Origin: Prevotella sp.
GTDB taxonomy: Bacteria > Bacteroidota > Bacteroidia > Bacteroidales > Bacteroidaceae
Reading direction: 5' to 3'
Assembly: GCA_016283605.1 (NCBI GenBank)
Contig: JAEENF010000158.1
Coordinates: forward strand, 1 to 34,088
DNA length: 34,088 nt
Shown here in pieces: positions 6,773 through 32,443 of this stretch; the stretch's first letter is position 1, and every line of letters starts with the position of its first letter. The position numbers and the translations under genes are program-made. The notes beneath the pieces were generated by a model. It was not told the origin of the DNA and did not search any database. It saw only the letters and a list, made by a program, of their open reading frames with translations.

Positions 6773-6801
6773 AGAATCCCGCCAGCTGGCGGGATTTCTT
6801 T
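6771..6801. terminator. Bidirectional Rho-independent-type terminator between convergent ispG and HK-like gene
   Basis: aatcccgcca-gc-tggcgggatt perfect inverted repeat (6775-6796), flanked by aaaga / tttcttta. Confidence 0.85.
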
Positions 6802-8302
6802 ATGTATGCAAGTTCAACACGAACCGCGTTCCTTTAGTGAAAGCTGGATCGATGTCTAGGTCGCCGTTCATCTTCAGCGCCATCTGACGACAGATTGGCA
6901 GTCCGAGACCATCGCCAGTGGTAAGATCCTTCACCTCGAGGAAAGGCTTGAACACATCCTCACGCTTCTCTTCAGGAATACCCTCACCTGTGTCTGATAC
7001 TAGGAACTGCTGGGCATGGGCACCACGTTTCTTGAACTCAAGACAGATCGTGCCACCCGCAGGTGTATATTCTGCGGCATTCTCCAACAGATGGCTCAAG
7101 ATATGAGAGACATATTCCTTGTGGATGGGTGCACTCATATTAGGAGCGTTCACCGTCAGCGTCACACTGCTTTTCACCTTGTCGCGGATCTGGTCCATCA
7201 GCGTCTCACAGAACTTTGGAATCTGAGTATCTTCCAGTTCCACAGGCTCCGTAGAGTTCTCCAATTCAGACAGCGTCTGGATATGTTCTGAAAATTCCAT
7301 CAGCGCCTTCACCTCAGGCTGGCTGTTATCGAGTTTCTGCAAAGTCGGATCCAGCTGAGCAGAGATGTTACTGATAAACTTTGCTTTCAGGGCGTTGTTC
7401 TCATTGGCTATGCGAATGGTCTTCTTCTGCTTACGCGTCAAGAGGATAAAACGCATCAGTACGACACCCCCAATTACCAGTGCTGCGGCGAGTGCTGCGG
7501 CGAGGATACAGAGTCCGATGATGATGGCCTGACGTGTGGTCAGCGAACTGTCTTTCTCTGAGATGGAGGCCTCGTTGTCGGCTATCTGCTTCTTCAAGGC
7601 ACCAATCTCATCAGCATGCTTCAAAGCATCGGTAGAGTCCTTCCAGGCGAGATAGTTGCTATACGACTGTGCCACCATATTGGCATTATTGCTCCTGCGG
7701 GCATTAGCGATGAGCGTCTTGTATACCTCGTCCACCTTGCCGTACTCCTTCTGTGCCGTCAGCTTGCTGGCCATCTCCTTGAAGACAGCATTACCCTGGG
7801 CATTCTGGCCGAAGGAGTAGTAATAGACGGCCTTGTTGTAGAGCAGGTCGTTCTTTACACTCTCATCGCCTGAGGTATTGGCCTGACTCTCCATGATGTC
7901 TAACTGTTCCTTCACACTCGAGGGCCTATGCAGTTTCATATACATCTGCATACGTTCCTTCGTCACTAGATAGTGCAGCGCAGCCTTTTTGACAGCACTC
8001 TTCTCGTTGGCGATGATAGTCTGGTCGATGCGACGCAACAAATCGAAGGCCTCCTTGTAATAGTTCTCCTTGTAATACAGCGCCGTAGCCTTGACACCAC
8101 ACTCTACACCCTGTTTAATTTGCCCCTTGTTGGCATAGTCCTCAAAAGCACGGATAAAGTTAAAACGGGCACTGGCAACTTTGCCTTTCTCAATGTCGGC
8201 TTCTGCATGTTGTTGAAGCTCGCTCTTCTTCACCTCCTGCGCACCAACCATGCCACAGCAGAAGAATACACTCAGAAGTAATACAAAAACTTTCTTGTTC
8301 AT
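6800..8302 (-). CDS. TPR-type sensor with one transmembrane segment and a HATPase_c domain; degenerate histidine kinase
   Basis: Signal peptide, TPR-like region, TM (AIIIGLCILAAALAAALVIGGVVLMRFILL), DHp-like FISNISAQLDPTL, N box HLLENAAEYTP, G1 DTGEGIP, G2 TTGDGLGLPICRQMA. Confidence 0.88.
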   Translation of the reverse strand: MNKKVFVLLLSVFFCCGMVGAQEVKKSELQQHAEADIEKGKVASARFNFIRAFEDYANKGQIKQGVECGVKATALYYKENYYKEAFDLLRRIDQTIIANEKSAVKKAALHYLVTKERMQMYMKLHRPSSVKEQLDIMESQANTSGDESVKNDLLYNKAVYYYSFGQNAQGNAVFKEMASKLTAQKEYGKVDEVYKTLIANARRSNNANMVAQSYSNYLAWKDSTDALKHADEIGALKKQIADNEASISEKDSSLTTRQAIIIGLCILAAALAAALVIGGVVLMRFILLTRKQKKTIRIANENNALKAKFISNISAQLDPTLQKLDNSQPEVKALMEFSEHIQTLSELENSTEPVELEDTQIPKFCETLMDQIRDKVKSSVTLTVNAPNMSAPIHKEYVSHILSHLLENAAEYTPAGGTICLEFKKRGAHAQQFLVSDTGEGIPEEKREDVFKPFLEVKDLTTGDGLGLPICRQMALKMNGDLDIDPAFTKGTRFVLNLHT

Positions 8303-18830: not shown

Positions 18831-20810
18831 ATGAAACTTAACGTATTAAAACTATTCCTTTTTATGACGATGATGTGCCAAGTGGCTATGGCACAGGACA
18901 ACGTCAATCTGAAATTCGGCAAACCCACCAAGGAAGAAATGCAGATGACGATTTACGAGGCTGAGCCTGACGCTGAGGCCGTAGTATTGTGTCGTCTGAC
19001 GGATGTGGAATATACCGTGCAGACCACCAGCTTTTTGGTGGACTATCGTGAGAAGTGCCGCATCAAGGTGCTGAAACCTAGTGGCGCCCGCTTTGCGAAG
19101 GTTGTCGTACCTTTCCAGAAGAACATGTCAGCATATAACATCGGTGGCTCGAAAATCACAGCCATGTCACTTCCAAAACCTGGAGGTAGTTCCGACTCCT
19201 ATTTCGAGGGAGAGGGCGTCTCTATGACTGAACAAATCTTTGACGCCAGTGCTGATGAGATGGTGGAGAGTATCAAGGCCACGGCCTTCAACCAGGAAGG
19301 TGGCAAGGTGGTGAAGACATCGCTGAAGAAAAGTGACATCGTAACGACAAAGATTGACGAACAGAACTATCAAGTGGAGTTTACCGTTCCTAACGTAAAA
19401 GAGGGTACGGTGATCGAATACGAGTACAATATCCACAGTCAGTTATTCTGGACATTGCGCGACTGGTATGCCCAAGGCGAGATACCCGTGGTCTATGCAA
19501 AACTGGATATGAATATTCCTAACTACCTGATTTTTAATATCGAGGATCACGGCATCCAGCGTCTGACATATACCTGTACGATGGGAAGTCTGAAATTCAA
19601 GGTGGTCAGCGACCCACTGGCTAATCCTATGACTGTAAACACCAACCATTACGTCTATACCGGCCGCAACCTGAAAGGTATGCCGAAGGACGACTATGTG
19701 TGGAATATTCAAGACCACTGTGCAGGCATCACAGCCGAACTGAAGACCTACCGTCTGCCAGGCATGAACCAGATGGACTATGCCAAGACTTGGGAACAGA
19801 TTGACGAAATGTTGCTCGACGATGATGACTTTGGCAAACAGACAGCCAACCACAGTCCGCTGCGCGAGACTCTGGAGACTGCTAAAGTAAAAGACATCAC
19901 CAACGAACAAGAACGGGCGGCAGAGGTTTGTCGTCAGGTCTTGAACCACGTAAAATGGAACGGAAAATACGAAATACATCCTGAGAACACCAGTGAAACA
20001 CTAAAGAAAGGCGAGGGCACCAATGCCGATATCAACATGCTACTGATCCAGTCGCTTTGCGATGCGGGGTTGCAGGCCTATCCCGTTGTGCTCCGTGAGC
20101 GCAACAAGGGACTGCTACCCTATAACTTCCCCTCGCTCAGCAAGTTGTCGACCTATGTGGTGGGCATCAAATACAGCAATGGGGCATTGGCCTATATCGA
20201 TGCCTCATCGAAGGCCGGACACCTGAATGCGCTGCCAGAGGTGCTACAGGTGGAGAAAGCACGTCTGATTGCCAAGGGCAAGGGTAGCACATGGGTGAAC
20301 CTCCAAAAGATATCACGTGCACAGACGGCTACTACTATCGTTGCCGTGCTCGATGCCGATGGGAAGCTCACGGGGACACAGACCACTCTCAACAAGACTT
20401 TAGATACCAAAGAGGAGGTGGCATTCACCAAACAAGGCGAAGTGAAGGACGACAAGATCTATATCAACCCCTTCTACACCGCTCCGATAGAGAAGAACCC
20501 GTTTACTGCCGAGACGAGAATCATGCCCGTAGAGTTCCCATCAGAGCTCTCTGAGCAGATGACAATCGACATCACCCTGCCCGAGGGTTACGTGTTGGAG
20601 AGTGAACCTTGGAAGATCGTTGCCACGACGCCTGATAAAGGCATCGAAGGCCGACTGGTCACCACCACTTCTGAAAAGATGACCCGTGTAAGATATCTGT
20701 TTAACATCAATAAGGTGTCACATTCTGAAAAGAACTATGACACCTTACGAGGAATCTTCGATCTGATATCGAAACGCAGCGCGGAACCGCTGATCTTTAA
20801 GAAGAATTAG
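18831..20810 (+). CDS. DUF3857 / transglutaminase-like domain protein with signal peptide
   Basis: Signal peptide MKLNVLKLFLFMTMMCQVAMAQ; DUF3857-like VEYTVQTTSFLVDYREKCRIKVLKPSGARFA; transglutaminase-like GTNADINMLLIQSLCDAGLQAYPVVLRERNKG. The track start (18801) is a TTG inside the -7 element. Confidence 0.8.
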   Translation: MKLNVLKLFLFMTMMCQVAMAQDNVNLKFGKPTKEEMQMTIYEAEPDAEAVVLCRLTDVEYTVQTTSFLVDYREKCRIKVLKPSGARFAKVVVPFQKNMSAYNIGGSKITAMSLPKPGGSSDSYFEGEGVSMTEQIFDASADEMVESIKATAFNQEGGKVVKTSLKKSDIVTTKIDEQNYQVEFTVPNVKEGTVIEYEYNIHSQLFWTLRDWYAQGEIPVVYAKLDMNIPNYLIFNIEDHGIQRLTYTCTMGSLKFKVVSDPLANPMTVNTNHYVYTGRNLKGMPKDDYVWNIQDHCAGITAELKTYRLPGMNQMDYAKTWEQIDEMLLDDDDFGKQTANHSPLRETLETAKVKDITNEQERAAEVCRQVLNHVKWNGKYEIHPENTSETLKKGEGTNADINMLLIQSLCDAGLQAYPVVLRERNKGLLPYNFPSLSKLSTYVVGIKYSNGALAYIDASSKAGHLNALPEVLQVEKARLIAKGKGSTWVNLQKISRAQTATTIVAVLDADGKLTGTQTTLNKTLDTKEEVAFTKQGEVKDDKIYINPFYTAPIEKNPFTAETRIMPVEFPSELSEQMTIDITLPEGYVLESEPWKIVATTPDKGIEGRLVTTTSEKMTRVRYLFNINKVSHSEKNYDTLRGIFDLISKRSAEPLIFKKN

Positions 20811-22708
20811 TATTCCAGTCCAATGTAGCTGTGGGCGGGGAGCTTGAGGGCGAAGACAGTAGCGCCATGGTGGCTGAAATAGCGGCCACGAAAGTAACGG
20901 TTCGGGGCGGACTGTTCCTCCTGGGGTTGGAGGGTCTCGCCGGTGAGGAGGTTGCGCAGCGACGACACCTTCGCGTTGATGATGACATTCACCGAGACGG
21001 CCTCATCGTTGAAGTTCTCGACGACGAGCGTGCGGTTGTCGTAGGGGAAGAGGGCTACCTTCGAGGGACCTTCGATATAAGCCCCGGCATCGAGACTCAT
21101 GGTACGGCGGATGACGTTGAGGGCCTGTGCGGGATAGTCGTAGAGGTTGCCGAAGTCGTCGGGGATGGTGAGCACGAAGAGGGTGCCCTTGGAGTAGGTG
21201 TTACGCAGCAGGATGGGATAGCCGGAGACACCACCATTGAGCGGACGGCCTGCGGAGACCACCTCCCAGGCATCGTTGGTGAAGTACTTCACCTGCGGGA
21301 TGATAAACTCACGCTCGGACTTGCCCTGCCAGCCGAAGTCGTTGACGATGGCCTTCAGGTCGCCACAGTAGAGTTCGCAGACATCAGCGAGCTCCTCGCG
21401 AATGGCTTTCAGAAGTCCGGTGGTGACGATGACATCGCCACCCTTACGGAGCTGGGCCTTGATCTTCTCCACAATCTGCGGGTCTTTCGCGGCCTGCTCG
21501 GTGAGGAGAATCTGCTGACGGTCGGTGAGGAACTGGGGGTACATGTCCATCGGCAGTCCGATCATACCGAGGTAGTTCTGCAGGAAGTCCTCGCCGGAGG
21601 AGTGCCAGGGTTTGTAACTGGCGATTCCGACGGGACGGCCGAGCTTACCTACAAGGGCATCGGTCTGCTGGAGGGTGACACTGGCGAAACGGGCCATCGT
21701 CGTGGGCGTGACGCTCTTGCCGTTCTTCGTGAAGGGTGCCACCATCTCGTCGTAACGGAAACTGTTGCCGCCGGCATCCTGCCACGCCCTACGCATCATC
21801 TCAGGCTGAATCTTCACGTCGTGGAGCTGCATGTAGTTCCAGAGGATGATCTCGGGGGTCTTCGCCAGCATCGTCAGATGAAGCTGTTCGGCGTAACGGT
21901 CCATGCTCATGTTGATGCCGCCGGCATCCACCCAGCCACCGCCATTTTTGCCAGGTGCGATATTGTCGAAGTAGCGGATGATGTTATAGCTGAGATAGTT
22001 CTGCAAGTGCTGCGCCGAGCCTGGGTCACGGGTCTCGGTACCTGTCCAGATGCCGTCAAAATAGAGGGGTTCTTCCTCGAGGTTGAAGCCGAGACCGTGG
22101 AAGTGGTCATACCAATTAGGATACTTGATGATGACCTTCACTTTCGGGTTGACTTTCTTCGCTGGTTCCACGACGAGTTCGCGACCGGCATCGGCCATGA
22201 GGCGCAGACGGTATTCCGTCCAGCTTTTCGTGCCCTTGGCGGCAATCTCATCATCGTTCTTCAAGTCGATGAAGAAGAAGTCGTCGAGGATGAAATCGTC
22301 GAAGAGTTTCGCGGTGAACTCTGCAACTTCTTTCACAGTCTGGCGCTCGTTGGCGCGGGCATAGCTGTAGGTTTCGAAGTCCTTAGGCTCCGAGCGGGTG
22401 TAGGTAATACCACCGCCCACCTCAAGGCCTTTCGACAGGAAGAACTTCTTCACTTTCTGCATGGTCTTCTCATCGACGGTGAACGCGTCACGGTGGGTCT
22501 CGAGGTAGATCTTATCGAGGTCTACCTGTGAGCTCACGGTCTCCCACGTCGCATTGAGGAACTTTTCATCTGCCATCCGCGCCACATCCTGCGCACGGAT
22601 ATACGATGACACCTTGAAATTCTGATACTTGCCTTTTCCCATAACAGGCATTGTGGCCAAAACGGCTGCTCCTACTAAAAGCATTCTGCTCATCATTTTA
22701 CTTATCAT
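20807..22708 (-). CDS. Secreted glycoside-hydrolase-like (TIM-barrel-like) protein of unknown specificity
   Basis: Signal peptide MISKMMSRMLLVGAAVLATMPVMG; KVKVIIKYPNWYDHFHGLGFNLEEEPLYFDGIWTGTETRDP resembles barrel glycosidase segments; located beside GH3/GH9 genes. Confidence 0.6.
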   Translation of the reverse strand: MISKMMSRMLLVGAAVLATMPVMGKGKYQNFKVSSYIRAQDVARMADEKFLNATWETVSSQVDLDKIYLETHRDAFTVDEKTMQKVKKFFLSKGLEVGGGITYTRSEPKDFETYSYARANERQTVKEVAEFTAKLFDDFILDDFFFIDLKNDDEIAAKGTKSWTEYRLRLMADAGRELVVEPAKKVNPKVKVIIKYPNWYDHFHGLGFNLEEEPLYFDGIWTGTETRDPGSAQHLQNYLSYNIIRYFDNIAPGKNGGGWVDAGGINMSMDRYAEQLHLTMLAKTPEIILWNYMQLHDVKIQPEMMRRAWQDAGGNSFRYDEMVAPFTKNGKSVTPTTMARFASVTLQQTDALVGKLGRPVGIASYKPWHSSGEDFLQNYLGMIGLPMDMYPQFLTDRQQILLTEQAAKDPQIVEKIKAQLRKGGDVIVTTGLLKAIREELADVCELYCGDLKAIVNDFGWQGKSEREFIIPQVKYFTNDAWEVVSAGRPLNGGVSGYPILLRNTYSKGTLFVLTIPDDFGNLYDYPAQALNVIRRTMSLDAGAYIEGPSKVALFPYDNRTLVVENFNDEAVSVNVIINAKVSSLRNLLTGETLQPQEEQSAPNRYFRGRYFSHHGATVFALKLPAHSYIGLEY

Positions 22709-22730: not shown

Positions 22731-22847
22731 TTACTTCTTCAGATAGTCTGTTGGCGTGCTATTGTATAGCATCTTAAAGTAGTGTGAAAACTGTTTAGGC
22801 GAGAGTCCAACCATCTGGGTCCTCTTTATTATCCGTCTTATAAATTC
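22731..22847 (-). pseudogene. Remnant of an AraC-family regulator (C-terminal HTH end only)
   Basis: Minus-strand frame between stops reads EFIRRIIKRTQMVGLSPKQFSHYFKMLYNSTPTDYLKK*, matching the end of AraC HTH domains (VGFSxxxYFxxxFKxxxGxTPxxYL). No in-frame upstream N-terminus in the gap. Confidence 0.7.
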
Positions 22848-22873
22848 TCAACATCCGAGGCTTCAGCCTACAA

Positions 22874-25135
22874 TTATTTGATAGTTGTTGTCTGACTTAA
22901 TGGCAATTGTGCTGACGAGCCGCCGACGTGGACGGTCAGCTCTCCGGGCTCTAACTTCCAGGACTGACTGGACTCCTCCCAATGGCAGAGGTCAGAGCAC
23001 CGTAGAGGAATCGTCACGGCCTTGTGCTCACCGCGCTTCAGAGCTATGCGCTTAAAGCCTTTCAGTTCCTTCACAGGACGTTCGATACTTGATGCGGGGC
23101 GCGAGACATAGATCTGTGCCACCTCTTCGGCCTCGAACTGGGAGTTATTGGCTAACGTGAAACTGACATCGAGACCGTCGGCCGTGGGCGAAACTCTCAG
23201 GTCGCTATATTCGAAAGTCGCATAAGAAAGCCCGTGACCGAAAGGATAGGCCGGAGTTACACCCTTACTGTCATACCAACGGTAACCCACGAGATCCTGC
23301 TCGGCATAGTCGGCGACGAGTTGCTGACGGCGGTCATTACTGCGGTTACGGATGATATCGACGAAAATATCGCCCTGATTATTGTTAGCGACATTCTGCG
23401 GATAGGTACCTGTAGCATAAGCGGGCACATCCTCGAGTTTCTTCGGCCACGTCATCGGCAACTTACCGGAGGGCGTAGTATTTCCCGCAAGCACTTCAGC
23501 TAACGCCAGACCGCCCATCGAACCATTGAACCATGAGACGATAAGGACGGGAGAAACGGCGCTGACCGTGCTGACATCCACGGGGCCTCCGGCGACGATG
23601 ACCGTCACCAGACGAGGATTCGCTTTTGCAAGGGCTTGGGCCAGTTCGTCCTGTCCTGAGGGCAGGGTAATGCTCTTGCGGTCGGAGCCTTCGGTCTCGA
23701 CCTCACGGTTGTCACCAGCAAAGAAGATCACAAGATCGGCCTCCTGAGCCACCTTTACGGCCTCAGCCATGAGGGCAGGGTCACCAGGCTGCTGCGGACT
23801 CTGACGCTTGTTACGGCTATCTCTGTCGAAACTCTTGTAGCCTGGCGCGTAGGTGATTATCTTCCCACCACCGAGTACGGCCTGCAACCCCTCGAGAGGC
23901 GTAATCTCTTTGCGGGTCTTGACACCGGCACCCACTCCACCGAGCGCCATCTTCGTCATAGCATTCTCACCAATGACGGCAATACGCTTTACAGATGTCA
24001 GGTTGATGGGTAGCAAGGGCCAGGGTTGGTTCTTCGCCGCCTTCAGGGCATGCTTCCCGACAATGGGCTCGTTCTTCAGCAGCACAATGCTGCGCCGTGC
24101 CACCTGCAGGGCCGTCAGCATCTCATCGTCATTACCCACAGGCTTCTTGTTGGCTTCCTCTCTTGCGACGGGTTTCACCGTCAGACGCACTCGCAGAATC
24201 TCACGTACACGCTGGTTGATGACGTCCTCGCTCACCTTTCCTGCTTTCACAGAGTCGAGCAGCGCCTGACCGAAGAAACGATTTCCCGGCATTTCGACAT
24301 TCATTCCTGCGGTTACGGCATCCACCGTGGAGTGGACACCGCCCCAGTCACTGATGACCATGCCTGGAAATCCCCACTGCCGACGCAGAATGGTGGTGAG
24401 CAGCGGTTCATTCTCGGAACACCAACGCCCATTGACCTTATTATACGCTGCCATCACTCCCCAGGCATCTGCCTCGCGGACAGCCATCTCGAAGGGTCGC
24501 AAATAGATCTCATGCATGGCACGGTCAGAGATGTGTACATCGACAAAACCACGATAGTCTTCCTGATTGTTCAGTGCATAATGTTTCAGACAGACAGCCG
24601 TACCATCCTCCTGTGCGCCCTTCGTATAAGCCACCGACAGCATGCCACTCAACAAGGGGTCTTCACTCAGATACTCATAGGTGCGACCACCTGTGGGGAT
24701 GCGCTGAATATTGATAGCAGGGCCGAGAATCATGTCCTTACCCCTCAGCCGCGCCTCACGGCTCATACCCCGCCCGTATGCGTAAGCCCACTCCATACTC
24801 CATGTAGCAGCCAACGCCGAACCCGTGGGGAAGAATGTGGCCGAGTCCGTCGTCAGATGGGCGGAGTTCCAGGAATGAGGCTCCATCTCCTCACGGATGC
24901 CGAAGGGACCGTCGGCATACTCCATATCGGCGATACCCTGACGAGGAATACCCGCCGAAGAGAACATATTCTTACCATGAAGCATGTCGATCTTCTCTTC
25001 GAGCGTCATACTCCTGATGATATTATCTATCTGCTGCTCATGTTCCAGCAACTTTGTCGGGTACAGTTGTCCCTGAACTCCAATGCTGAATACCATCGCA
25101 ACGCCCACTAACACTATTCTTCTGCGCTTCTTCAT
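22874..25135 (-). CDS. Glycoside hydrolase family 3 beta-glucosidase (BglX-like)
   Basis: MTLEEKIDMLHG, PAINIQRIPTGGRTYEYLSEDPLLSG, KHYALNNQE, GMVISDWGGVHSTVDAVTAGMNVEMPG; C-terminal FnIII-like VAQIYVSRPASSIERPVKELKGFKRI. Start moved to ATG 25135 (MKKRRR). Confidence 0.95.
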   Translation of the reverse strand: MKKRRRIVLVGVAMVFSIGVQGQLYPTKLLEHEQQIDNIIRSMTLEEKIDMLHGKNMFSSAGIPRQGIADMEYADGPFGIREEMEPHSWNSAHLTTDSATFFPTGSALAATWSMEWAYAYGRGMSREARLRGKDMILGPAINIQRIPTGGRTYEYLSEDPLLSGMLSVAYTKGAQEDGTAVCLKHYALNNQEDYRGFVDVHISDRAMHEIYLRPFEMAVREADAWGVMAAYNKVNGRWCSENEPLLTTILRRQWGFPGMVISDWGGVHSTVDAVTAGMNVEMPGNRFFGQALLDSVKAGKVSEDVINQRVREILRVRLTVKPVAREEANKKPVGNDDEMLTALQVARRSIVLLKNEPIVGKHALKAAKNQPWPLLPINLTSVKRIAVIGENAMTKMALGGVGAGVKTRKEITPLEGLQAVLGGGKIITYAPGYKSFDRDSRNKRQSPQQPGDPALMAEAVKVAQEADLVIFFAGDNREVETEGSDRKSITLPSGQDELAQALAKANPRLVTVIVAGGPVDVSTVSAVSPVLIVSWFNGSMGGLALAEVLAGNTTPSGKLPMTWPKKLEDVPAYATGTYPQNVANNNQGDIFVDIIRNRSNDRRQQLVADYAEQDLVGYRWYDSKGVTPAYPFGHGLSYATFEYSDLRVSPTADGLDVSFTLANNSQFEAEEVAQIYVSRPASSIERPVKELKGFKRIALKRGEHKAVTIPLRCSDLCHWEESSQSWKLEPGELTVHVGGSSAQLPLSQTTTIK

Positions 25136-25140
25136 ATCAT

Positions 25141-25168
25141 AACTCTTAACTGTCAACTCTCAACTATC
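25141..25168 (-). repeat. Heptad tandem repeat, class B, at the Gfo/Idh-GH3 junction
   Basis: Plus strand aactctt aactgtc aactctc aactatc; the minus strand carries the Gfo/Idh stop (gatagTTGA..) and ends 5 bp before the GH3 ATG. Confidence 0.85.
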
Positions 25169-26131
25169 CATCGGATACCTTACGCCCCACTTCTGACGCA
25201 GCCCGTCCATGAGCTGCATGATATAGAGCGTCTCGGCATGCGGCATCTCACGAGGCTCCTGCAATCCCTCTGCAAGGGCCTCACGACAGGCGAGGAACTG
25301 GTATTCGTAACCCGTGATCTGCTGCGGCACGCGGATGGTTTCTACATAGGTACGATCCGGACCATTCACAGTAATCGTCTGCGGATTGTTGATATTGTCG
25401 ATGATGAGGTTACCCTCGGTACCTGCGATGACACCGATATTGTCACCTACACACTGCGCCGAGCTCTGCACATTAGCGAGGATACCATCTTTCAAAATAA
25501 TGGTAATGGCATTGGTAAGATCCATACCCGTATCAGATTTCACACAATGACCGTCGATGCTGACAATATCGCTATCCGTAAACATACGCACGAAATTCAG
25601 TGCATAGACACCGAGGTCGAGCAAGGCACCACCGCAGAGGTCGGGACGCATGATACGGGGTTTATTACCCATCGAATAGCCTAGCGTGGCAGTGATCAGG
25701 TGCGGCGTTCCTATACGGCCGTCGGCAATAAGCTGTCGCATGGTAGCAACGACAGGCTGGTAACGTGTCCAGATGGCCTCAGCAATAAAGACTTTCTTCT
25801 CATGGGCAAGGTCGAGGATCTCCTTCGTCTGTCGGGCATTAGCCATAAAGGCTTTCTCCACGAGACAGGGCTTACCTGCGAGAATCGCCTCGCGTGTCAC
25901 ATCGTAATGATGGGAATGAGGTGTGCCCACATACACCAAGTCGACGTCAGGGTCGGCCAGCAGTTCATTGTATGAGCCATAGGCCTTCGGGATGTTCCAT
26001 TTCGCCGCGAAGGCTTCGGCCGTCTCTTTCTTCCGCGAGCCCACAGCGTAGGCTTCGCAGGTGTCTAATCCGTTTAAGGTGATGGCCGCCTTCTCGGCAA
26101 TCCATCCCGTTCCTATGATTCCAACTCGCAT
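25160..26131 (-). CDS. Gfo/Idh/MocA-family oxidoreductase
   Basis: MRVGIIGTGWIAEKAAITLNGLDTCEAYAVGSRKKETAEAFA, DLVYVGTPHSHHYDVTREAILAGKPCLVEKAFMANARQ, GGALLDLGVYALNF. Confidence 0.94.
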   Translation of the reverse strand: MRVGIIGTGWIAEKAAITLNGLDTCEAYAVGSRKKETAEAFAAKWNIPKAYGSYNELLADPDVDLVYVGTPHSHHYDVTREAILAGKPCLVEKAFMANARQTKEILDLAHEKKVFIAEAIWTRYQPVVATMRQLIADGRIGTPHLITATLGYSMGNKPRIMRPDLCGGALLDLGVYALNFVRMFTDSDIVSIDGHCVKSDTGMDLTNAITIILKDGILANVQSSAQCVGDNIGVIAGTEGNLIIDNINNPQTITVNGPDRTYVETIRVPQQITGYEYQFLACREALAEGLQEPREMPHAETLYIMQLMDGLRQKWGVRYPMDS

Positions 26132-26132
26132 T

Positions 26133-27317
26133 TTACCCTCTTGCCATTTTATAGATGGATTCCATATCTTCGGCCTTCAACACTTTCAGACAGCCACAGG
26201 TCGAGGTGTAGTCACGGCTGCACTTACGGGTCATTTCCTTGATCTCCTCATCAGAAATATCCTTACCGATGAGTTCCTTGATGTTGATGGGCATACCTAT
26301 AGCGTGGTAGAAACGCTCCATGGCCTCAATACCCTTCAGGGCAGTGCCCTCGGGATCCGTGAAGTCATTGGGCACACCCATCACATTGACAGCGAAGCGC
26401 ACGAAGCGACACAGATTCTCATGCATCACATAACGTGCCCACGATGGCCAGATAGCAGCAAGTCCTGCACCATGAGTGACATCAAACATACCACTCAGTT
26501 CATGTTCCAACTGGTGCGTGGCCCAGTCATCAGCGACACCACAGCCCGTAAGTCCGTTGTGCATCAGACTGCCACCCCACATGATCTGTGCACGGTAGCG
26601 ATAGTCCTCAGGATTCTTCAATACGGCAAATACGGCATCCTTGATTGAGCGCAGCATAGCTTCAGCGATGTCGGTCGTGAATTCCATATCGTCATCCTTG
26701 GTGAAATAACGCTCCATGGTATGCATCATCATGTCGGTCACACCGGCTGCCGTCTGATAAGGAGGCAATGTAAAGGTGCGACGGGGATTCATAATGGCGA
26801 ACTTAGGACGGGAGAGGTTATTCGAGTAGCCAAGCTTTACATCGCCCTCCTCGTTAGTGATTACCGATGCCTCACTCATCTCACTGCCGGCAGCGGGAAT
26901 CGTAAGCACACAGGCTACAGGCAACATCTTCTCAGGTTGAGCCTTACCCAGATAGAAGTCCCAGACATCACCCTCATAGGGTACGCCATAAGCAATACAT
27001 TTCGACGAATCAATGACACTACCGCCACCCACAGCGAGGATAAAGTCGACACCCTCCTGACGACAGAGTTCGATACCTTTCTGCGCCAACGATAGACGGG
27101 GATTAGGCACGACACCACCGAGGGTAACAAACTCGACACCGCCTTCTTTCAGCAATCCGCAGACCTTATCGAGCAATCCCGACTTGACAGCACTCTTTCC
27201 ACCATAATGTACCAGCACTTTCGTGCCACCATATTTCTTCACGAGGACAGCTACCTGCTCCTCACTCTTTTCACCGAACACCACTTCCGTCGGTGCATAG
27301 TAATTAAAATCCTTCAT
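26133..27317 (-). CDS. Iron-containing alcohol dehydrogenase (BDH/YqhD-type)
   Basis: FNYYAPTEVVFGEKSEEQVAVLVKKYGGTKVLVHYGGKSAVKSGLLD, DFILAVGGGSVIDSSKCIAYG, HQLEHELSGMFDVTHGAGLAAIWP. Confidence 0.95.
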   Translation of the reverse strand: MKDFNYYAPTEVVFGEKSEEQVAVLVKKYGGTKVLVHYGGKSAVKSGLLDKVCGLLKEGGVEFVTLGGVVPNPRLSLAQKGIELCRQEGVDFILAVGGGSVIDSSKCIAYGVPYEGDVWDFYLGKAQPEKMLPVACVLTIPAAGSEMSEASVITNEEGDVKLGYSNNLSRPKFAIMNPRRTFTLPPYQTAAGVTDMMMHTMERYFTKDDDMEFTTDIAEAMLRSIKDAVFAVLKNPEDYRYRAQIMWGGSLMHNGLTGCGVADDWATHQLEHELSGMFDVTHGAGLAAIWPSWARYVMHENLCRFVRFAVNVMGVPNDFTDPEGTALKGIEAMERFYHAIGMPINIKELIGKDISDEEIKEMTRKCSRDYTSTCGCLKVLKAEDMESIYKMARG

Positions 27318-27343
27318 ATTTTTACTTCTTTACCTTTTTACCT

Positions 27344-29890
27344 TTAAATATTTTTTGCTGCTAAAACGAGGAACATATAGTGCGACGATCCGCCACCGAG
27401 CACATACTCCGTCTGCTGCCATAGGAAGGGGAAGGTGAGCAGTTCAGGGAAGTCTGGACGAATCAGCGCCGTACCAGAGACCACGCCACCAGGGATATAC
27501 GACCAATCCGCACGATTCAGACCGTATGCCACCGTAGCCGACTTAGCCCCCACACCCGAAGCAAAGGAAGCGGTATTGCTGCCTGGATGACAACCTAACA
27601 CGAAGTTCAAGGCATTATAAACGGTCTCCTTCGGGAAAATGTCGGGATAAGCTGCCGCAAGGAAATAATACTCAAATCCAAAGCGCTGGATGTCCCAGCC
27701 TGCACCCCAGATACTCGGACGATAGGGTACACCGTAAGGTGTCTCTGCCGCCTGCTGATCAAGCTGAGTCTTATAGCCCATGAGGGCATTGCGATAGGCG
27801 GCAACAAACTGACGACTGCGTTTGTCTTTCTTGGTTTCCAGTTCCTTGGCAACACGGGCGATAAACCAGGCCGAACGGCCTACGCTCCTTACGATCTGCT
27901 CCTGCTGACTCAGCACGACATCGAGATACTCTGCCTCGCCCGTCGTCAGATACAGTTCTACGGCAGCCTGAAGCTTCATGCCCGCCATCATCCCTGACAC
28001 TTCCGTCTGATGATAGATATCAGCAGCAATCTGCTGACACTCATAGCTCAGTTCGTCGTTGAATCCCCGAAGTACACGGGCGGCACCTGCCAACTGTGCC
28101 GCTGTAGAGAGGGCACGCATGGGATTATCCTCGGTAAAGATCCAACGGTCGTCGTCATTGCCGATGATACCGTCGGTCATTGCTGCCGCGTCACCAAGCA
28201 TGGCATACTGGCGCAACGAGTTACAGATGATACCACGATACAGCCGACCAAGCGCCTGATAACTGCGTACAACGGTCAGTGCACCGTTCTCCACCTGTTG
28301 CAGGATGTCGTTCTTACCGTCGGGCTCATGGATCTCCACACGATGCCGCTGCTGGTCGATAGCCGTCGCATCAATTTCCGGATGGAACTGCTCATAGGCC
28401 AGTGCGAGGATATAGGCCTCCCCGGCCTGCGACTCCACACGAAGGTCGAAGTCGCCGGCATCGTGCCAACCGCCGACATTCACACCCGGCACCTTTTCTC
28501 CCTCTGCATATTTCGAGAGACCGGGCTGCTGGTCGTAGCCGTCAATATGGTTTCCCACATGCGCCATCAGGGCATCATCCATGTGACAGGCATCATGCCA
28601 GATGCGATACTTCTCCGAAACCCTCATGTGACACATCTGCACAGGCAGGAAATACTCGATGACAGGCTGCCACACGCCACGCTCATAGACATCATCGGCA
28701 ATACGGAAGACACTCGAGACACTCTGCCCATACTTCACCTGATAGAGCCCCGGCTCAGTGACTTCACTAAAGTCGGCCGTCAGATAGCGGTAGCGCAGGA
28801 ACTGTCCCCAGACCTTAGGCTCCACACGACAGACGGACTGCTCACCGTTGGCATCGATACGTACCAGATCGGCGTGTCCCACAGCCGTGTCACGTGGGTC
28901 AGTCTCGATGACCACCGTCTTAGGCTGTCTCGTCGTATAACCGATCTGCGAAGTCTGGATGACGGCAGGATAACGCCAGTCCTTATCTACCTCGGGCGTA
29001 ATCAGCCAGCGCACGGCACCCTTCGTGGCACCTTTCGCAATCTCACTGCGCAGCACAAACCAGCCGTTATTGTGGTTCATACGTCCGTCGTAGAGTTTCA
29101 GGTCGCCCGTGAACGACTCCACCCTCAGCTTCTGTGAGGGGGCATCGGGACGGGAGATGAAGATACGACCCACGGCGTAAGGCTCGGCGATGATATCATC
29201 GGCACGCAACGGACTATAGCCCTCACCGTCGAGCTGTGCAAGGTTTGCCTTCTGCTTAGGTGCAGACGGGAATCCGCCACGCGAGGGTGCGGCCTGCGAG
29301 GTGAAGTAATCGCCGTCGTGACCGCGGTTCGTCGCCACCTGCAACAACGGCCCGTTAGGCTGCTGAGGATAGATGCCTCCCGTCTGGTCCATCACCCACG
29401 GTTTGCCAAACAGCTCGCCAGGGAAGAACTCCAGGTTGAAGCCTGCCTTTCCGAGCAGGAAGTCGGGCACAGGCTTGTCGAGATCGACGGTGACCAGTAT
29501 ACCATTGCCCTGAGGCTCTACGTTGACGGTGTAATTCACGTGATAGTCAGGATAGACCATCGGATTGAAACCCGTCATGTGACGCGACGAGTCGGGGTAG
29601 CAGAGCGTCGTCGTGATACGCCCGTTCTCCACCTTCCGACTTAACTGTTTAGGTACGGGCTGCCACTGTCCAGGTGTCGCCTCCATACGGATATCACCGT
29701 TGGTAGCGATACGCTTGCCGTTCATAATGACACACACACCTCCCTGATGACCCTCTGGATAGAAATCACTGAAAGCCATCACGTCAGTACCTCCTGCATT
29801 GAAATAGCCAGCCTCATTCAGCTTAAACGTCTGTGCCGTCGCCATCTCCGCCGTCACCAACGCCATCATCAAAATAACAACCTTTCTCAT
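27344..29890 (-). CDS. Glycoside hydrolase family 9 (endoglucanase-type) with CelD_N-like Ig domain
   Basis: VGGWHDAGDFDL (GH9 Asp motif), EPDGKNDILQQVE, C-terminal FPFLWQQTEYVLGGGSSHYMFLVLAA (GH9 Glu region); CelD_N-like VTEPGLYQVKYGQSVSSVFRIADDVYERG. Confidence 0.9.
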   Translation of the reverse strand: MRKVVILMMALVTAEMATAQTFKLNEAGYFNAGGTDVMAFSDFYPEGHQGGVCVIMNGKRIATNGDIRMEATPGQWQPVPKQLSRKVENGRITTTLCYPDSSRHMTGFNPMVYPDYHVNYTVNVEPQGNGILVTVDLDKPVPDFLLGKAGFNLEFFPGELFGKPWVMDQTGGIYPQQPNGPLLQVATNRGHDGDYFTSQAAPSRGGFPSAPKQKANLAQLDGEGYSPLRADDIIAEPYAVGRIFISRPDAPSQKLRVESFTGDLKLYDGRMNHNNGWFVLRSEIAKGATKGAVRWLITPEVDKDWRYPAVIQTSQIGYTTRQPKTVVIETDPRDTAVGHADLVRIDANGEQSVCRVEPKVWGQFLRYRYLTADFSEVTEPGLYQVKYGQSVSSVFRIADDVYERGVWQPVIEYFLPVQMCHMRVSEKYRIWHDACHMDDALMAHVGNHIDGYDQQPGLSKYAEGEKVPGVNVGGWHDAGDFDLRVESQAGEAYILALAYEQFHPEIDATAIDQQRHRVEIHEPDGKNDILQQVENGALTVVRSYQALGRLYRGIICNSLRQYAMLGDAAAMTDGIIGNDDDRWIFTEDNPMRALSTAAQLAGAARVLRGFNDELSYECQQIAADIYHQTEVSGMMAGMKLQAAVELYLTTGEAEYLDVVLSQQEQIVRSVGRSAWFIARVAKELETKKDKRSRQFVAAYRNALMGYKTQLDQQAAETPYGVPYRPSIWGAGWDIQRFGFEYYFLAAAYPDIFPKETVYNALNFVLGCHPGSNTASFASGVGAKSATVAYGLNRADWSYIPGGVVSGTALIRPDFPELLTFPFLWQQTEYVLGGGSSHYMFLVLAAKNI

Positions 29891-29933
29891 ATATTTACTC
29901 TTATTTTCTGCCTAACAATGTCATCAACATACC

Positions 29934-32402
29934 TCATTTCTCATTTACTATATTTTTCAGCGCAGAGCCAAAGATGATGTACTGAGTATTTCCAGCAATC
30001 GTTCCCTCGTTCTGACCCCAGAGGAAGGGCCAGTCATCATAGTTCTCGAAATGATCAGGCTTACGGAACAGCAGACCTGGTGCCACATTACCAGGAATGG
30101 CCGAGAAGTCTGCACGGTTATTACCATAGAACACCTGCTTCGGTCGCGTGGCACCCACAACGGCCACAAACGAATAATTATGGTAAGGATGACAACCGTA
30201 GAGCCAATTTGCCACACGATAGACCTCATCCTTCTTCACAATATCGGGGAAATAGATATGGGCATAGTTTACGGTGATGCCGAAGTTCAGCACCGCATTC
30301 ACACCCGCCCAGTTACCCAGACCGATGGGTACGCCGTAAGGATTCTGGGTGTCGAAGCTACGGATGTAGTCAGCATACTGCTGAACGGCAGGCCGGAGCC
30401 CCTCTTTGTAGGCAGCGTCTTTCATGGGTATGCTGTCAAGCATAGTCTGCAGATTACGGGCTACATTGCGGTAGTTACCGTCGCCAGTACCGGTAAGCCA
30501 GTCGTAATCGGCTTCAGCCTGGGCATTCCTGCGACCACGACGCTGCGCCATCAGGGATTCAGCTTCCTTACGCAGACGATCAGCCTGCTTCTGTGCGCGC
30601 TCGGCCAATTCATCGTTGTAGCCTTTCAGGACACGGGCAGCAGAGGTGAATACACCTGCAGCCTGAAGGTCAAGGCTCGGATTGCGATTGGTGAAGGCCC
30701 ACATATCGTCAGGCGTACCCGATCGCTTACCGTCGGCACTAACCTCGTAAGGCTTCAGCGAAGGATCGTAATGCAGACCGTCCGTGATGCTCGCAGCATC
30801 ACCGAGATGGTGATAGTTATCCAGGATACTGTTCGAGAGCGTCGAAGCCATGTGCCCGATCTGCTCAGCCTGAGCCACAAGGTTTAGCACGCCATGTTCG
30901 ATAAACTGCAAAATATCAGGCACGCCGTCGGGTCGGTGCAGATCCACATAACGCTGCTGTTGCGAAACAAAGGTCTCATCGCGTTGTGGCTTAAACAACT
31001 CCCAAGCACGGATAAGGTTCTGTACAACGTTGATGTTCGATCCTGTCTCGATGTCGAAGTCGCCGGCATCGAAGAAACCACCCACATTCAAACCCGGAAT
31101 CAGTTCCAGCGGTTTGTACTTCGTATCTGTCGACGGGCCCTGACGATGCAAATCGAAGTGGTCACTCTCAGGCGCCTGCAGATAACCCTCCTTGAAGGGT
31201 TCTCCATGCCAAGTGCGATAGCCCTCGGTCACATACATGTGGTTCATATGGATCGGCACCCACACATCCGTCGTCGCATCGGTGATCTTATCATAGACGT
31301 GCGCATCGATAAGGAAGTCGTTCGTCTTCGTATTGCCGTACTGGATATAATAGACACCGGGCTCCTTCACCGCCGAGAAGTCGAACTTCACATAATTATA
31401 TTTAAAATAAGGCCCCCACGCCTTCACATCACCTTTGAAAGCTTCTGTCGTCGAACCGTCGGTATTAATACGCATCAGCGAGGCCGTAGATAACATGCGG
31501 TCTTTCTTGTCCAATTCAATCACGGCCACCTTCGGTTGCTCAGGGATATATCCGATCTGCGAGAAACCTATATTCGGCTCACGAATCCAGTTCTCGATGG
31601 CATTGGGCTCCACGGTCCAGGTCACCACCTTGCCAGTCTTGCCCTTCGGTAACACACTCCGCAGCACAAACCAACCGTTCTGCGCCAGCATCCTCCCGTC
31701 GAAGAGTTTCAGTTCGGCATCCTCACTCGTGATCCTGATCATGCGCGAAGGGTCATCCGTAGCCACAATCATCTGATGTCCCGTCTCCAAAGGCAGCGGA
31801 TCAACGAAACGGTCAGTACCACGATCATCGTAGGTCTTGAAGCCCTTGAACTGTCTGGGCTTCTCGCTGTTCGGTCGCGTGATGGTCTGACTGGTTGCAT
31901 AGCGTGGGAAACGATTCAGGCGTCCGTCCATCAGGAAGGTCTTCAGCCAATACTGCGATGGCAGGAACTCGATGTTGAAACCAGCCTCACCGGCAAGCTT
32001 CTCAGGCACGGGCTTATCCAGGTAGACGGCTATCTCCACAGCCTTGCCTTTCGCCGTGACCACCACACGACTATCGAAGTCGTAGTCATCGTAGCGCAAA
32101 CCCACTTCGATACTGCCGTTCTCACGGTCCACCCTGCGGTTCGTCATCTTAGGCACAAGATCCCACTGCTCCGGTGTGTTATTCAACCGGACAGCACCGC
32201 CTTGTACGGTTCTGACACCATGATGAATGATTTCGATACCTGAGTTCTTCTCGTCATTGAACCCGCCGTTAAAGCTGTTGCTGAACACTAATACGTTCAC
32301 ACCCTGCCGCTCAAAATAATCGAGGTCATTGAGTTGCAAATCCTGCGCCTGGCTGACAGAAGTCGCCAACATTCCTGTAAGGACAAATAATAGTCTCTTC
32401 AT
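29934..32402 (-). CDS. Glycoside hydrolase family 9 (endoglucanase-type), tandem paralogue
   Basis: VGGFFDAGDFDIETGS, RPDGVPDILQFIEHG, WPFLWGQNEGTIAGNTQYIIFGSALKN; CelD_N-like VKEPGVYYIQYGNTKTNDFLID. Start placed at ATG 32402 (MKRLLF). Confidence 0.9.
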   Translation of the reverse strand: MKRLLFVLTGMLATSVSQAQDLQLNDLDYFERQGVNVLVFSNSFNGGFNDEKNSGIEIIHHGVRTVQGGAVRLNNTPEQWDLVPKMTNRRVDRENGSIEVGLRYDDYDFDSRVVVTAKGKAVEIAVYLDKPVPEKLAGEAGFNIEFLPSQYWLKTFLMDGRLNRFPRYATSQTITRPNSEKPRQFKGFKTYDDRGTDRFVDPLPLETGHQMIVATDDPSRMIRITSEDAELKLFDGRMLAQNGWFVLRSVLPKGKTGKVVTWTVEPNAIENWIREPNIGFSQIGYIPEQPKVAVIELDKKDRMLSTASLMRINTDGSTTEAFKGDVKAWGPYFKYNYVKFDFSAVKEPGVYYIQYGNTKTNDFLIDAHVYDKITDATTDVWVPIHMNHMYVTEGYRTWHGEPFKEGYLQAPESDHFDLHRQGPSTDTKYKPLELIPGLNVGGFFDAGDFDIETGSNINVVQNLIRAWELFKPQRDETFVSQQQRYVDLHRPDGVPDILQFIEHGVLNLVAQAEQIGHMASTLSNSILDNYHHLGDAASITDGLHYDPSLKPYEVSADGKRSGTPDDMWAFTNRNPSLDLQAAGVFTSAARVLKGYNDELAERAQKQADRLRKEAESLMAQRRGRRNAQAEADYDWLTGTGDGNYRNVARNLQTMLDSIPMKDAAYKEGLRPAVQQYADYIRSFDTQNPYGVPIGLGNWAGVNAVLNFGITVNYAHIYFPDIVKKDEVYRVANWLYGCHPYHNYSFVAVVGATRPKQVFYGNNRADFSAIPGNVAPGLLFRKPDHFENYDDWPFLWGQNEGTIAGNTQYIIFGSALKNIVNEK

Positions 32403-32443
32403 CTCTAGCATTTTGTTTTATAGTTTTTGTAGGTATAAATTTG

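Follow-up and report, generated by a model that had tools for sequence, protein, structure and literature searches.

The gap of 165 bp between the stop codon of a GH3 family glycosidase gene (22874) and the start of the adjoining glycosidase-like gene GHx (22708) raises the question of whether a regulator once stood next to these genes and, if so, what became of it. The gap lies in a Prevotella sp. contig, of which the whole analysed stretch of 34,088 nucleotides is called the window below. Translation of the minus strand from 22847 to 22731 confirmed that it encodes the peptide EFIRRIIKRTQMVGLSPKQFSHYFKMLYNSTPTDYLKK*, directly preceded by an in-frame TGA (22848-22850). The initial annotation had taken this peptide for the end of an AraC-type helix-turn-helix (HTH), left by a regulator of the AraC or hybrid two-component type that had probably been deleted down to its last ~38 codons, leaving the beta-glucan genes without a local activator. 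The open frame comprises 38 codons only; stop codons and the GH3 coding sequence lie directly upstream.

Residues 8-38 (22734-22826) were found to match the C-terminal end of the second AraC-type HTH of the ~1330-residue HTCS, the hybrid two-component regulators of Bacteroidota polysaccharide utilisation, with 55-68% amino acid identity to their C-termini in tblastn. With the 38-mer as tblastn query, matches at E <= 0.01 were obtained in 30 of the 298 other genomes of the genus (31/299 with its own genome), the best foreign one at E = 2.7e-10, and nearly all fall at the extreme C-terminus of long open frames, typically of ~1300 codons. The Pfam search proposed with the initial annotation did return the AraC profiles over residues 11-37 (HTH_18, E = 0.0014; HTH_AraC, E = 0.0037); the shortness of the peptide keeps both hits under the curated cut-offs. 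An nhmmer search with a DNA profile of 22 HTCS tails from relatives matched 22819-22733 at E = 2.8e-13, the runner-up in the window having E = 1.9, and still gave E = 1.2e-11 when 1.46 Mb of related loci were searched; this bears out the reading as the end of an AraC-type HTH. At the sequence level, the homology of residues 8-38 to the HTCS C-terminus can be regarded as certain. Of the two parent types that had been considered, tblastn, the tail profile and synteny point to the hybrid one, and specifically to an HTCS.

The secure remnant, as aligned by nhmmer, tblastn and hmmsearch (residues 8-38), thus runs from 22819 to 22734 on the minus strand and comprises the last ~29 codons of the second HTH (MVGLSPKQFSHYFKMLYNSTPTDYLKK plus flanking codons), followed by a TAA (22733-22731) at the place where intact HTCS genes, which terminate in YLKK plus 0-10 residues, also end. 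The HTH end is therefore real, but its certain part covers 29-31 codons rather than ~38. Residues 1-7 (EFIRRII) weakly resemble the HTCS helix EFIRIIK, which lies ~20 residues further upstream in HTCS (peptide shuffle p = 0.0135, DNA shuffle p = 0.22, profile E ~0.03); if the likeness of EFIRRIIKR were genuine, 22820-22847 on the same strand would be a second piece of the gene and would mean a small internal deletion, a reading that is not secure. An nhmmer search of 22815-22873 gave no further HTCS match and, with the DNA shuffle at p = 0.22, no remnant of the HTCS body is claimed beyond 22820. The remaining 22848-22873, which includes the in-frame TGA, is spacer up to the GH3 stop, as judged by comparison with the GH3-GHx spacers of loci L104, L107, L115 and L066. 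The rearrangement junction lies somewhere within 22820-22873.

The extent of the loss is illustrated by the HTCS of L064, which shares a contig with locus L105. It carries two-component propeller repeats (Reg_prop), HisKA, HATPase_c, Response_reg and HTH_18 in one chain, and its best solved relatives are HTCS pieces (e.g. 12aw, 3v9f, 4a2l). In the window ~30 of the ~1330 residues are left, corresponding to the C-terminal half of the second HTH; the sensing and phosphorylation parts are gone and a single, partial helix-turn-helix persists. The remnant has neither the sensor, HisKA, HATPase_c, receiver and two HTH in one frame of a functional HTCS, nor the complete two-HTH domain of ~80-100 residues of a stand-alone AraC protein, since only 27 of the 80 HTH_18 positions are matched. 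Because it has no sensing or phosphorelay parts and no complete DNA-binding domain, the remnant itself is most likely inert.

The neighbouring genes are all on the minus strand. GHx (20807-22708) encodes a putative secreted glycoside hydrolase of 633 amino acids that has no sequence match in Pfam, NCBIfam or PDB. Its AlphaFold model reached a pLDDT of 50 with 16 sequences and of 84 with more rows, including two relatives of 27-28% identity, and the model matches a GH164 beta-mannosidase (E 8e-19, TM about 0.55-0.63, 10% identity) as well as GH42 enzymes. GHx is thus plausibly a glycosidase of a family uncurated in Pfam and NCBIfam and, as it has a predicted fold but no sequence family, the label "beta-glucan" is only a guess for this gene. 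Of the 299 genomes of the genus, 44 contain it, and its candidate loci number at least 322. The GH3 gene (22874-25156; Pfam Glyco_hydro_3 and Glyco_hydro_3_C, and synteny) is preceded by the rest of a putative operon (25160-32411), in which Pfam recognises a Gfo/Idh/MocA oxidoreductase, an Fe-alcohol dehydrogenase and two GH9-type cellulase-like genes. Further along the window, 6800-8302 on the minus strand encodes a putative signal-transduction protein with HATPase_c; the Pfam scan showed no HisKA, and no response regulator was recognised alongside.

The gene order was compared in 80 loci encoding a GHx of 61-89% identity. As the initial annotation had suggested looking for, a full regulator exists in related genomes: an HTCS of the same subfamily stands directly 5' of GHx in 17 of the 80 loci (three cut by a contig end and one split by a frameshift), usually in the order HTCS > GHx > GH3. 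In L154, the HTCS upstream of GHx was matched as two overlapping pieces in different frames, which suggests a frameshifted, decaying regulator. Most GHx-bearing relatives also have no adjoining HTCS of this subfamily. In several intact loci only about 0-20 bp separate the HTCS stop from the GHx start, and the tail in the window keeps the position and spacing to GHx of intact loci. In loci with an intact HTCS the GH3 gene comes after GHx, but in the window it precedes the remnant, and the resulting order GH3 > tail > GHx is unique among the relatives examined. The order GH3 > HTCS > GHx was found in no relative, GH3 being absent upstream of the intact HTCS wherever upstream sequence exists. The order in four other close relatives (L104, L107, L115 and L066) is GH3 > GHx > alcohol dehydrogenase, the spacer being short and lacking a tail, and L112 has acetyl-CoA hydrolase > GHx > cysS, i.e. 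the outer flanks of the window without the GH9-ADH-Gfo-GH3 block. In L181, and also in L110 and L149, the only GH3 matches after GHx are fragments, either internally deleted or C-terminal, and the GH3 of the pair may be decaying in some lineages. The junction itself was found in no same-species or very close genome among 397 other genomes of the genus and 148 other relatives, in which the relevant DNA matches fell either on the coding ends of GH3 or GHx or on HTCS tails, the latter with ~71% identity.

The assembly to which the window belongs (2.68 Mb in 288 contigs, 81% complete) contains no HTCS of this subfamily elsewhere. Relocation within the genome was considered and rejected, the best match to the L064 HTCS being only 34% identical; other HTCS-like and histidine-kinase genes are present, all of other subfamilies. 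From the HTCS found 5' of GHx in relatives, together with the absence of the subfamily from the rest of this 81% complete assembly, we conclude on comparative grounds that the regulator has been lost from this locus. Since the two genes co-occur across genomes (GHx in 11 of the 13 genomes with the HTCS versus 44/299 overall; Fisher p = 1.3e-8), the intact HTCS is likely to be functionally linked to GHx. Pfam scans of the window's main genes revealed no other HTH activator, so that the proposed absence of a local activator is plausible and the genes would have lost their sugar-specific induction.

The loss appears not to be confined to the window. When the tail profile was run over the 1.46 Mb of related loci for partial matches with E < 1 that run up to the C-terminus and are separate from any longer HTCS (leaving out the ends of longer, more distant HTCS, as in L176, L178 and L179), only four scars were found: the window (1.2e-11), L126 (2.3e-4), L159 (0.032) and L156 (0.68). 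All four are on the GHx strand, directly 5' of GHx and no more than about 160 bp from its match, the last three at 84 to 43, 155 to 98 and 106 to 47 bp before it, respectively. The L126 scar reads MMYGDTLSEYLKN* and has a Bacteroidota -7 box (TAnnTTTG) 29 bp in front. L156 and L159 have a frameshifted tail, and their alignment with the sister locus L151, in which the HTCS is intact, continues across the spacer into GHx. The scars of the window, L126 and L156/L159 occupy three separate places on the GHx tree, on which the presence of an HTCS next to GHx changes 11 times, at least six of these changes being forced by supported branches, in a set in which some loci are cut by contig ends. Because scars also lie 5' of GHx in L126 and L156/L159, the same regulator has, on this sequence evidence, been lost repeatedly, independently in at least two other lineages, with its last codons left behind. 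That the repeated removal of the HTCS spared its last 14-30 codons because the DNA retains a function, as GHx promoter or leader or as a leader peptide, seems improbable to us; if true, GHx would have been rewired and not merely orphaned.

Trees of the two neighbouring genes bear on the history of the junction. In the GHx tree the window groups with the HTCS-bearing L105 (92/85), a grouping rejected by the GH3 tree (p-AU 0.0037), and this discordance fits a recombination near the tail. Segment by segment, the DNA identity of GHx is mixed, with L104/L107/L066 nearer than L105 for most of the gene; the discordance may thus partly reflect a mosaic within the gene. Over 27 codons, the tail differs from intact HTCS with pN of about 0.18 and pS of about 1, compared with 0.14 and 0.79 among intact genes, values that come from one sequence with saturated pS. 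As they resemble those of intact genes, they fit a tail that diverged mostly under coding constraint and a loss that is recent relative to the divergence.

We consider it very probable that the stretch is a pseudogene scar, namely what remains of the 3' end of an HTCS gene formerly located immediately before GHx, the rest of the gene having been replaced by a rearrangement. Two other histories are compatible with such a scar and differ on how it arose. Homologous recombination might have imported GHx together with the adjoining HTCS end into a locus with GH3 > GHx in which the regulator had never been present, as the existence of HTCS-less GH3 > GHx loci in near relatives and the discordant trees, with a breakpoint that would fall at the tail, could suggest; yet the 5' part of the window's GHx is nearer by DNA to L112/L104/L107 than to the HTCS-bearing L105, and the acetyl-CoA hydrolase and cysS flanks are common to L112, which has no GH3 cassette, so that we regard an import as possible but doubtful. 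Rather unlikely is a simple deletion in place, by which an HTCS between GH3 and GHx would have lost all but its tail: the position and spacing of the tail agree with it, as does the partly kept frame, in which EFIRRIIKR could be the other side of an internal deletion, but no locus with the order GH3 > HTCS > GHx was found, and tail-less GH3 > GHx pairs with short spacers exist in L104, L107, L115 and L066. As GH3 does not precede an intact HTCS in any locus with upstream sequence, the history requires that the HTCS body was lost and also that the GH3 block arrived. The initial annotation was thus right that a regulator was lost here, but GH3 and its upstream genes must also have been brought next to the tail, and simple shrinkage of the gene where it stood is less likely than a rearrangement that also carried GH3 in. 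An intermediate arrangement was seen in no genome examined.

Two further explanations were weighed. A false join of two loci in this metagenome-assembled genome might be suspected from its 288 contigs, its 81% completeness and an arrangement unique among the relatives examined; it is very improbable, since the GH3 stop and the GHx start are both intact, the tail, with ~65-70% DNA identity to HTCS genes, copies no relative examined, and comparable scars occur in independent assemblies. Even less credible is continued translation of the 27-codon frame from the ATG (MVGLSPKQFSHYFKMLYNSTPTDYLKK) into a leader or small protein serving GHx. The frame is open, ends 22 bp before GHx and has pN/pS like that of intact genes, but this ratio comes from one sequence of 27 codons with saturated pS, the tail is frameshifted in L156/L159 and shorter in L126, and no conserved open frame or peptide was found among HTCS-less relatives.

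Under the preferred reading of a pseudogene scar left by a rearrangement, the HTCS gene would formerly have occupied the position immediately before GHx that it retains in related rumen Prevotella. Given the distance of only about 0-20 bp between HTCS stop and GHx start in several intact loci, transcription of GHx then probably came from read-through of the HTCS gene or from a promoter located in the 3' end of that gene. The rearrangement would have removed the sensor, kinase, receiver and first HTH, the GH9-ADH-Gfo-GH3 string taking the place of the lost body, and the last ~30 codons would have been spared since they abut the start of the retained GHx. As no consensus Bacteroidota promoter (TTTG-N17-22-TAnnTTTG, with at most one mismatch in the -33 box) was found between GH3 and GHx, the latter is now probably read with the GH3 operon.

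Taken together, these sequence data show that sugar-degradation clusters of rumen Prevotella exchange or discard the sensor dedicated to them yet retain the enzymes, and that such a loss is recognisable from a scar of ~30 codons. Counts of such scars would offer a direct means to date and count regulator losses. The data also call for caution in deducing the regulation of such clusters from their enzymes alone. HTCS are established activators of hemicellulase and related genes (review PMC10766802), and for Segatella/Prevotella one study describes CAZyme clusters that lack SusC/SusD and an inulin locus with no HTCS gene contiguous to it (PMC11784079); in the window, by contrast, the lost HTCS can be recognised from its scar. 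We found no specific report of HTCS pseudogenes in polysaccharide loci in the literature consulted. As a pseudogene remnant the scar is of an ordinary, known kind: like other deletion pseudogenes beside a retained gene, it is a short 3' fragment abutting a conserved neighbour, recurrent in related lineages, and its own assembly (81% complete) has no intact copy elsewhere. What is new here is the exact parent gene, the proof from synteny, the corrected history and the recurrence in other lineages, and it is only by this recurrence at GHx, in three lineages, that the window differs from ordinary pseudogene remnants.
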